From contig SCRA01000019.1 of assembly GCA_004297985.1 (NCBI GenBank), positions 1 to 64,000 of the forward strand: 64,000 bases of DNA, written 5' to 3'. Positions within the stretch are counted from its first letter, which is position 1; the number at the start of each line of letters is the position of its first letter. Position numbers and translations under genes: made by a program. Shown here piece after piece: positions 1 through 3,288 of this stretch. This stretch comes from a bacterium. Lineage in GTDB: Bacteria; Vulcanimicrobiota; Vulcanimicrobiia; Vulcanimicrobiales; SCRA01. The notes beneath the pieces were generated by a model. It was not told where the DNA came from and searched no databases. It worked only from the letters and a program-made list of their open reading frames with translations.

Positions 1-1
1 A

Positions 2-34
2 TAACTGTGTTTTGCCGACACCGACACCGACGCC
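2..34 (+). repeat. 33-bp inverted repeat, left copy
   Basis: Exact 33-base match to the reverse complement of 946-978. It encodes the junction between a Cys-containing stretch and a Pro-Thr linker. Identity stops one base before (position 1 differs) and immediately after position 34. Confidence 0.85.
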
Positions 35-332
35 CGCAACCTACCGCTGGCAAGACCGAACCACTCTGTCGTGCGCAGCTCTGGGGCATCTCTTGGCTAA
101 GTGCAATCAAAAAGATGACGTGACTCTGCAGGAGTCTTTCGGCGGCGGTCCGTGGGGGTCGATAGCGACGTGCGCCTACTCGACGCTCCAGAATAACGTC
201 TACGTGGACGGTGGTGGCGGAGTCTTTACGTCGCTCTCGTATGGTGCGCCGTTCACGCCATACGATAGCGACCCGATCTCTAACCATGACGCGGGGGCCA
301 CGAGCGTCACGACGTCCGGCTGTCCCCCGTAG
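3..332 (+). CDS. C-terminal part of a surface-type protein with a Pro-Thr linker, cut by the window edge
   Basis: The reading frame is open from the left edge and stops at 332, so only the last 109 residues are visible. It begins with NCVLPTPTPTPA, a Pro-Thr linker, followed by a Cys-containing domain (residues ending SGCPP) that I do not recognise. The linker and the residues before it are identical to those in the reverse-strand gene at 582-1694, but the domain after the linker is unrelated. It may be the end of a second gene of the same family or a promoterless spare C-terminal cassette; the sequence left of the window would decide. A bidirectional hairpin terminator follows at 345-375. 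Confidence 0.45.
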   Translation, partial: NCVLPTPTPTPATYRWQDRTTLSCAALGHLLAKCNQKDDVTLQESFGGGPWGSIATCAYSTLQNNVYVDGGGGVFTSLSYGAPFTPYDSDPISNHDAGATSVTTSGCPP

Positions 333-344
333 CCTGCAAAAACG

Positions 345-375
345 AGAGGCCCCGCGGTCGCGGCGCGGGGCCTCT
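345..375. terminator. Bidirectional rho-independent terminator
   Basis: A perfect 12-bp stem (345-356 with 364-375) closes a 7-base loop. On the reverse strand it is followed within two bases by five T (complement of 338-342). On the forward strand it runs into TTT. It sits between the forward gene ending at 332 and the reverse-strand reading frames from 543. Confidence 0.75.
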
Positions 376-543
376 TTGCATTTGACGCCGCTGCGAGCGC
401 CATCGTCCAGGATGCGCTGGCGCGTGAGGTCGATCGACTCCTCGACGCTGATCTCGCCCGGCAAGAACCCGGTCGCGCATTTCCTTCGCGAAGGCGTCGG
501 GCTCGAGACCTTGCGCCCGGAGCAGCACGAGGCCCGGACTCAT
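376..543 (-). pseudogene. VbhA-like small antitoxin, frameshifted
   Basis: From the ATG at 543 the frame reads a GLEPDAFAKEMRDRVLAG stretch. A single-base shift near 461 then continues it as EISVEESIDLTRQRILDD. The joined sequence has the pattern of VbhA-type antitoxin domains (a short helix, then an AGEIS-EE-I motif, then a helix ending in RxRI). This is family-pattern recognition, not a match I could test. No stop codon follows in the restored frame before the terminator, so the end is unclear. No Fic toxin partner is visible. It is probably a decayed gene, or there is a base error in the assembly. Confidence 0.35.
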
Positions 544-581
544 AGTGCCGAGAGATCTGTTCGCGGTCGCCCTCGTATATG

Positions 582-1694
582 CTAATTTCCTCCTCCGCAC
601 GCCGGATAGATCGTCGCCGTCGTGTTTACGTACACCTGGGTATTTCCAGCGAGCCCGCCCGTCTGCGCAAGCAATGCATCCCACGACGTCTGATCGGTGT
701 CTAGCCCCGGGCTATAGAGACCCGTATCCATGTACGCGGTCTGGAACGGCGCACCAAGCGTGATGGGATTCGGGAACGGCCAGCCTTGACCGCTCGTATC
801 GGGCGCTCCCTCCAACGGCATCTGCGATGCCGCAATCGGTCCGATGGTTTGGTTCCTGGTGAACTGGACGCACGAACCGCCGGAGGTTGCGTTACTGGCT
901 GCGTTTAGCGCGAGTGTAACAGGCTTCGGCGTTGCGGTCGGTGCCGGCGTCGGTGTCGGTGTCGGCAAAACACAGTTAGGCGGGGTGCCGGTGTAGCCTG
1001 CGAGGCAACGCTCTGGGTCGATCACCACGGTGACATCGACACTCTTAGCGTCGGTCGACGTCACGGTGAGGCCGCACGTTACTGGCTGCGTGTTGCCTAG
1101 GTTGCCGGCGACGACGTCGAACGCGCCATCGCTGTAGCCCGTCGTCGTGCCCGCGAAGGGCCCCGAAGTCCAGGGGGATGCTGGAGACTTGTGTGGCGCC
1201 GAGGCTAGCGACCACGGCGGGCCAGAGAGGCCGGAGAAGCCGTAGGCCGACGACGGCGCAACCGCGCCGACTGTAGGTTCCGAGCAGCCGCCTTGTGTTA
1301 CCGTCCACGGCCGCGCGTACCAGGACTCTGCCGCCGAGATCGCGCCGCCGGTCGGTAGCGGCTGGTTTCCCTGGCTTTCCCAAAGGCCGCTATCGGGGTG
1401 CCACTCCAGGTACGTCGGGCTCACGTTGAGCGCGCCGGCGGGCGGAGGCGAGTAGTAGACAGTGACTGTGTGTGCCTGCGGCACCGGCAAGCCCGCAATC
1501 TCCTCGTGCGATCGCAACCACGTCGGAGTCTGATCCCACGTCCGTGCTTTAGCGTCCGGGCTCGTACTCCATATGTCCATCGCGACGGAACGATTTCCAC
1601 CGTAGACTTCCGGGGACGCCATACGTACCAACACGTCCTTCGGCACATATCCGCGCCGCGTCGCATAGTAGGCGATGGGGTTGACGTTCGGCAC
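582..1694 (-). CDS. Large surface-type protein with PTPTP linker and C-terminal cassette; probably 5'-disrupted
   Basis: An open frame of 370 codons from a GTG at 1694. About 240 residues of Gly/Ser/Trp-rich sequence end in an EGF-like CLAGYTGTPPNC turn. A PTPTPTPAPT linker and a roughly 115-residue C-terminal domain rich in Thr, Gln and Gly follow. I do not recognise a family. Upstream the same style of sequence continues in other frames: YYYDSNKHVLEKFSYT at about 1735-1800 and NLDFYAKDSQRV at about 1810-1850. This suggests a longer gene broken by at least two frameshifts, or base errors. The 33-bp repeat at 946-978 marks the border of an exchangeable C-terminal cassette. Confidence 0.5.
   Translation of the reverse strand: MPNVNPIAYYATRRGYVPKDVLVRMASPEVYGGNRSVAMDIWSTSPDAKARTWDQTPTWLRSHEEIAGLPVPQAHTVTVYYSPPPAGALNVSPTYLEWHPDSGLWESQGNQPLPTGGAISAAESWYARPWTVTQGGCSEPTVGAVAPSSAYGFSGLSGPPWSLASAPHKSPASPWTSGPFAGTTTGYSDGAFDVVAGNLGNTQPVTCGLTVTSTDAKSVDVTVVIDPERCLAGYTGTPPNCVLPTPTPTPAPTATPKPVTLALNAASNATSGGSCVQFTRNQTIGPIAASQMPLEGAPDTSGQGWPFPNPITLGAPFQTAYMDTGLYSPGLDTDQTSWDALLAQTGGLAGNTQVYVNTTATIYPACGGGN
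946..978 (-). repeat. 33-bp inverted repeat, right copy
   Basis: Reverse complement of 2-34. It lies inside the gene at 582-1694, exactly at its Pro-Thr linker. Recombination between the two copies would keep the reading frame and exchange the C-terminal domains. Confidence 0.85.
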
Positions 1695-1866
1695 CTCGGT
1701 GGAGGCGTTGCGTTCAAACCTTCCGCGAAGCCCGTTGGCCCGCGCCGCGTGTACGAGAACTTCTCGAGCACGTGCTTATTGGAGTCGTAGTAGTAGGCCC
1801 AGAAGTGGCGACGCGCTGACTGTCCTTTGCGTAGAAGTCGAGGTTGGCGTGGCAGCGGCTACGTCA

Positions 1867-2228: not shown

Positions 2229-2606
2229 ATGCCGATCGCCGAGAAGAATCGCAGAGCGCAGGTCGCGCTGGAGGCGTTCCGGAGGCTCGCGGAGCGTTGG
2301 AAGCTCCGCATCGAAGACCAAGAGGTCCTCCTGGCCACTCCGCGCCGCACGCTCTACCACTGGGCTGAACGGCCCGAGAGTGCGCGTCCAGACCGGGACA
2401 AGCTCGAGCGCATCTCCTACCTGCTCGGTATCCTCGGCGGGCTGGCGGCCGTCTACGGTGACAATGTTCGGGCCGATGAGTGGCTGCGCCGGCCCAACGA
2501 CGCCTTCGGAGGGCAAGCTCCCCTGGAACGGATGCTTCAGGGTAACGTCGGTGACCTCGCAGCGGTACGCGCATACGTCGATCGCTTTGCGCATGTCGGG
2601 TGGTAA
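2229..2606 (+). CDS. Xre/MbcA/ParS-family antitoxin (DUF2384)
   Basis: A 125-residue protein. An N-terminal helical region contains a helix-turn-helix-like stretch (EDQEVLLATPRRTLYHWA, about residues 29-46). A C-terminal toxin-binding domain carries the hallmark WLRRPNDAFGGQAPLERMLQG. In this family the antitoxin binds and inhibits a RES-domain toxin and represses its own operon. The gene immediately downstream, seven bases away, is a RES toxin, which confirms the pairing. The start is the ATG placed six bases after the -10 box, with no Shine-Dalgarno sequence. Confidence 0.88.
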   Translation: MPIAEKNRRAQVALEAFRRLAERWKLRIEDQEVLLATPRRTLYHWAERPESARPDRDKLERISYLLGILGGLAAVYGDNVRADEWLRRPNDAFGGQAPLERMLQGNVGDLAAVRAYVDRFAHVGW

Positions 2607-2613
2607 CGCCTGA

Positions 2614-3288
2614 GTGATCGCTCCGACCACGCGGCTCTCGTGGCCTGACGCGTACCGCATCGTCTCATCACCGGACGCTCCGATCGCCGCGCTATCGAAT
2701 CTGGTCGCGCGGCCCGAGGATCTCGAAGCACTTCTCGAGATCGAGGCGATGACGAATCCCGTAGCGCGCCTCGCGCGAGAGGGGATTGCGAACGTACCGC
2801 GCGAGGAGCGTGTTCTCGGCGCGGGCGCCGCGCTCATCATGACGCCGTTCGTTCTGCCGGCGGTCAGCCGATTCTCAGACGGCTCGTACGGCGTCTTCTA
2901 TGCAGGGGATGAGCTGAGAACCGCCGGCGAAGAGCGTGCGTATCATCTGACTGAGCGGTTGAAGGAGTCCCACGAAAGCGAGATCGTTCTTCGGGCTGAG
3001 GGATACGCATACAAGGTGGGGATCGACTGTATGCTGCACGATGTGCGGCGCTCCGCTACACCTGCACCGCCGCCGGAGATCTACGACCTTGACAGCTACG
3101 ATGCCGCACAGCGGCAGGGTCGATTGCTCCGCGACGAAGGCTCTCACGGTCTACTGTACGAGAGCGTCCGGCGCCCTAGGTTCGAGTGCGCCGGAATCTT
3201 TCGCCCGAAGTGCATCGGCAATCCAAGACCGGCTGGTGTGGTGTACTTTGATTGGGACGGCGCGAAGGTCACCGTTGTCGGCGCGTGA
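2614..3288 (+). CDS. RES-domain toxin (NAD+-degrading, MbcT/ParT family)
   Basis: A 224-residue protein from a GTG at 2614. The RES family is named for conserved Arg, Glu and Ser. Candidates here are R86 (SRFSDG), Y96 and E106/E107 (FYAGDELRTAGEE), and the serine in GSHGLLYESV. Characterised members (Mycobacterium MbcT, Pseudomonas Res) deplete cellular NAD+. Its length fits the family. It is translated from the antitoxin mRNA. The gene after it converges, with the two stop codons three bases apart. Confidence 0.88.
   Translation: MIAPTTRLSWPDAYRIVSSPDAPIAALSNLVARPEDLEALLEIEAMTNPVARLAREGIANVPREERVLGAGAALIMTPFVLPAVSRFSDGSYGVFYAGDELRTAGEERAYHLTERLKESHESEIVLRAEGYAYKVGIDCMLHDVRRSATPAPPPEIYDLDSYDAAQRQGRLLRDEGSHGLLYESVRRPRFECAGIFRPKCIGNPRPAGVVYFDWDGAKVTVVGA

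Follow-up and report, generated by a model that had tools for sequence, protein, structure and literature searches.

A 33-bp inverted repeat at the Pro-Thr linker of a broken prepilin-like gene: a possible relic of a one-segment C-terminal inversion cassette

Introduction

Two copies of a 33-bp sequence lie in opposite orientation at the start of the DNA analysed here, a bacterial stretch of 64,000 nt referred to as the window. The locus raises the question whether the DNA between the copies is, or once was, an invertible segment exchanging the C-terminal domain of a surface-type protein. With moderate confidence, the locus is regarded here as the relic of a shufflon-like C-terminal inversion cassette with a single segment, or at most as a dormant cassette dependent on an enzyme acting in trans.

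According to the proposed mechanism, the constant part of a prepilin-like surface protein would be followed by the 33-bp site at a Pro-Thr linker, and a copy of this site in inverted orientation, at a distance of 911 bp, would stand in front of another tail that has no head. If the two sites recombined, the segment would be turned round and the second tail fused in frame to the constant part. A minor-pilin locus with such a one-segment cassette, borne on a mobile element, most likely then lost both its recombinase and the prepilin start in the host genome.

Results

The inverted arms

The left arm (2..34, + strand) and the right arm (946..978, - strand) were confirmed to be exact reverse complements over 33 nt, and the match extends to 37 nt at 97% identity. 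The spacer between the 33-nt arms is 911 nt long (35-945). The second-longest exact spaced inverted repeat in the 64-kb window (arms within 3 kb) was 16 nt, and none longer than 15 nt was found in the neighbour stretches of 12–20 kb. The left arm reads NCVLPTPTPTP(A) and the right one lies within the prepilin-like frame; both translate in frame to NCVLPTPTPTPA at the identical position of the Pro-Thr linker and continue into unrelated C-terminal tails, as had been described in a sequence-only reading of the window. The rightward frame from the left arm stops at 332 and the leftward gene stops at 582. The in-frame fusion predicted upon inversion of 35-945 also held, the assembled product and the post-inversion fusion both being open to their stops, the latter to that of tail 2.

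The possibility that the repeat is just a linker common across the genome had been raised as well. At up to 3 mismatches, the 3.19-Mb host genome contained these two arms and a contig-overlap copy of one only. The 31-mer of the arm was present in just 2 of 388 related genomes, namely the host genome and one congener, and no match to the arm sequence was found in IMG/VR. Due to the restricted occurrence at both levels, a common linker was ruled out.

The anatomy of the locus suggests that the arms were recombinase sites and that the segment was inverted in the past. As a counterpoint, a similar picture would result if a short piece of linker DNA had been duplicated in inverted orientation by some other process. 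The corresponding alternative, possible although somewhat doubtful, is plain rearrangement debris: a non-site-specific duplication, or a deletion that removed the first part of a convergent paralogue, left an inverted linker copy and the segment never switched. The presence of two arms only, with no linked invertase and a single assembled orientation, is consistent with such an origin. In contrast, the bounds of the arms suit a C-terminal swap with the frame kept in both tails, and a deletion breakpoint exactly at the edge of an arm would be a coincidence.

The prepilin-like gene and its paralogues

The constant part of the prepilin-like gene (979..1842, - strand) is broken: it is 5'-truncated, lacks the N_methyl segment and is open from 1694 downward. 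In the frameshift-tolerant alignment to the intact paralogues, G000:C36 of the host genome and G001:C83 of a congener, two frame changes were detected, near 1640-1680 and near 1808, respectively, in agreement with the frameshifts reported upstream. The homology to an intact paralogue does not begin before about residue 85 (window ~1842), the first ~85 residues being missing, and neither the N-terminal prepilin peptide nor the methylation motif was found in the window gene. The paralogue G000:C36 carries the prepilin N_methyl motif (PF07963, E=7e-6), which supports the earlier assignment to a surface-type protein. The window prepilin frame had no match in PLSDB and no relative in the scan of the genome collection.

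At G000:C36, G001:C83 and G003:C255 (the latter from the bin of another congener), the prepilin gene is convergent with a lipoprotein gene related to that left of the arm. The stops of these genes are separated by 170–240 bp and no headless tail is present. Since the three paralogous pairs have no extra tail, the arm and tail 2 are an addition at the window locus, which is a second copy of the convergent lipoprotein/minor-pilin pair with the arm and tail 2 inserted between.

The prepilin remnant is adjoined by an Xre/MbcA/ParS antitoxin and RES toxin pair (2229-3288, + strand), which is syntenic in the congener G001. Compared with the window, G001 has an insert of about 8.5 kb behind the RES toxin gene and ahead of the next gene (G001:C81:79965-88476), and the insert includes a 775-aa gene resembling metE.

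The two tails and the DNA between them

Tail 1 (582..945, - strand), which the assembly shows fused to the constant part, is a C-terminal domain that is restricted to the genus and ends ACGGG. Six copies of the domain were found in the genus, the one on the window gene sharing 43–49% identity with the five others and the alignment having 25 invariant columns. Matches of the tail-1 HMM were confined to the genus, except for one weak broken match. Two of the other copies belong to the prepilin-like proteins at G000:C36 and G001:C83, one lies at the contig end of G003:C255, and two end ~565-aa lipoprotein-like proteins of the host genome (G000:C18:6267 and G000:C9:9202), one of which was searched against Pfam and gave no match. 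The ACGGG-ending domain is modular. Its AlphaFold model had a pLDDT of 81.7, and no fold match was found in the PDB.

Tail 2 (39..332, + strand; 97 codons and a stop, frame 3-332) contains zero stops over 39-329. Its codon score, 0.11 bits/codon with a GC3 of 0.72, is the best of its six frames and comparable with those of tail 1 (0.09) and the prepilin body. A strong hairpin follows directly after the stop (344..375; -31.8 kcal/mol, z -4.3), and it is also terminator-like on the - strand, with a 12-bp stem and the tail CGTTTTTGCA. No relatives of tail 2 were found in 198 related genomes, PLSDB or IMG/VR, and the single-sequence fold, with a pLDDT of 32, carried no confidence. By its open frame, codon usage and hairpin, tail 2 is regarded as a putative real domain. 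In the assembled orientation no N-terminal part reads into it: the lipoprotein gene and its terminator reach the left arm with no such part between, and tail 2 is therefore headless.

The region 391..582 (- strand) between the tails is a probable remnant of a small gene. It was recognised in several frames of a three-frame translation, and no Pfam family scored above the cut-off. Its fragment AGEISVEESIDLTRQRIL presumably resembles VbhA-type antitoxins. This remnant, the broken prepilin and the patchy identity of the lipoprotein copies described below make up a decaying mosaic locus, as expected for rearrangement; the open coding-like frame that tail 2 retains, together with its own hairpin, argues against it. 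In view of the lack of relatives of tail 2 and of any known inverted form, rearrangement has to be taken seriously as a rival.

The left flank and the contig end

The window starts at the end of contig C2 (89.7 kb) of a genome that is 96% complete in 90 contigs. The left neighbour is contig C3 (30.3 kb), whose first 120 bases match window 1-120 exactly as the reverse complement. In the congener G001, a single contig contains the matches to C3:2836 onwards and to window 2193 onwards at a distance of 2.7 kb. The join is thereby confirmed, and that contig is without the lipoprotein/cassette/prepilin block. Left of the left arm lie a hairpin terminator and then the lipoprotein gene, ending at C3:197. 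The arm thus stands immediately behind the stop and terminator of the lipoprotein gene, an arrangement expected of a silent cassette. The sequence-only reading had pointed to the left of the window for more cassettes and a tyrosine or serine recombinase. On C3 no further arms or cassettes were found, and neither C3 nor C2 gave a match to PF00589 or PF00239 (tyrosine and serine recombinases, respectively).

The start of contig C2 lies a single base outside the left arm, within a base of the branch that an inversion would produce. The idea that the contig start is an assembler trace of inversion is nevertheless hardly credible. Exactly 120 bp are shared also by five other contig-end pairs of the host genome. 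The likely source assembly, from the Oak Ridge wells, was made using IDBA-UD with a maximum k of 121 (PMC7137472), which fits the 120-bp overlap; judged by the shared overlap, the host genome probably derives from the same assembly. Moreover, the contig G003:C227 of a congener starts with the same 120 bp as C3 and diverges at the next base, C3:121, so the branch is a merge of the flanks of two organisms. The branch node is window 1-120, one base off the 2-121 predicted by an inversion. The contig break was accordingly rejected as proof of inversion, also because the arms themselves are unbroken.

The assembly is continuous through both arms in a single orientation. Since neither C3 nor C2 is broken there, it speaks for one dominant orientation, with no numerical bound on the other. 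These observations bear on a further alternative, an active phase-variable cassette flipped in some cells by a trans-acting recombinase, either chromosomal (G000:C75) or of the C227 type. The identity of the arms would agree with activity, as recombinase sites tend to remain identical. However, at k=121 a mixed population would be expected to interrupt both C3 and C2 where the arms lie, the branch node lies at the wrong base, and flipping would yield a prepilin that is frameshifted and truncated at its N-terminus. An active cassette is therefore considered improbable.

Recombinases and the mobile element

The two PF00239 genes of the host genome (G000:C67:5510 and G000:C81:68135) were considered as invertases and rejected, both being IS607-family transposases; no Hin/Gin-type serine invertase was found in the genome. 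A tyrosine-type candidate was encountered on G003:C227 (SCQY01000254.1), a mobilisable element of 59.7 kb in the bin of an uncultured congener (MAG FW021_bin.42). C227 encodes a MobA/VirD2 relaxase, a TraF-like signal peptidase, ParA, a zeta-toxin-like kinase, RecD2, YqaJ, ArdC, a T2SSE-type ATPase and a Cre/Xer-like recombinase. A recombinase 32% identical to the latter is encoded on G000:C75. Both enzymes could favour an active cassette, but no arms were found beside either of them. The likelier job of the C227 recombinase is multimer resolution.

The first 120 bp of C227 cover the arm and the beginning of tail 2, in the same orientation as in the window, these being the two known copies of the left arm. 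The arm and 86 bp are identical between the window and C227, which speaks against mere rearrangement, although contig ends are selected for identity. The lipoprotein gene comes next, and its protein is 80% identical to that of C3. The two gene copies share 93–98% identity over 240 bp and then become patchy, with 57–100% identity in most 60-bp blocks. When the genome collection was scanned with the lipoprotein, C227 alone matched. Such sharing would fit an exchange of sequence between the chromosome and a mobile element, and the window locus was probably brought in on a C227-like element. That the Cre-like recombinase of C227 acts in trans at the 33-bp arm, switching or exchanging tails and moving them between element and chromosomal copies across species of the genus, is very improbable.

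Discussion

The best supported reading of the locus is a dead or dormant switch on what is left of a locus of mobile-element type, as the gene that carries it is broken, an enzyme for flipping is not encoded nearby and one orientation was assembled. The earlier caution that the system may be dead was thereby supported: the prepilin is truncated and frameshifted, no cassettes lie to the left, and the joined contigs carry no recombinase. With no linked invertase and no inverted form, the locus is only a candidate shufflon. The case also illustrates how a contig that ends at a repeat may mimic inversion when the flanks of two organisms are in fact merging. If the locus was ever functional, pilin C-terminal inversion would not be confined to the enterobacterial plasmids but would extend to an uncultured lineage from groundwater, with arms, pilin and tail family different from those of the well-studied plasmids.

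In Salmonella Typhi, the SPI-7 island, derived from a conjugative element, encodes PilV1/PilV2 with a constant part, one invertible segment and two tails; it also has a complete pil operon, and rci is adjacent to the segment. The window locus has the same layout of a constant part, one segment and two tails; in contrast to SPI-7, it has neither an adjacent rci nor a complete pil operon. In comparison with Cre/Xer-type plasmid recombinases, the enzyme of C227 is a candidate for acting in trans, and no arm adjoins it.

The PilV shufflon of the IncI1/IncI2 plasmids R64 and R721 is rearranged by the Rci recombinase at sfx sites; Rci is described to act on 19-bp repeats, and the 31-nt sfx comprises a 7-bp core and a conserved 12-bp right arm (PMC5430464, PMC11852207). 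The window locus resembles it in several respects: a type IV pilin-like protein has a constant part and C-terminal tails encoded by alternative partial ORFs, the junction carries inverted repeats, the tails converge within a single segment, and a related copy of the locus lies on a mobilisable element. As for an invertible C-terminal cassette in general, inverted repeats and alternative in-frame partial ORFs are present. On the other hand, the window locus has one segment and two arms, whereas an Rci-type shufflon has at least 3 repeats and several segments. The arms are 33 nt in comparison with the 19-bp Rci repeats (compared by length), no rci is adjacent, the paralogue is a chromosomal N_methyl prepilin, and the window prepilin is broken. 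Of the shufflon logic originally proposed, the anatomy of a one-segment C-terminal cassette thus stood, and the linked recombinase and multiple segments are missing, for which reason the locus was not classified as an Rci shufflon. By analogy, the window locus appears to work, or to have once worked, most closely like a one-segment version of the PilV shufflon.
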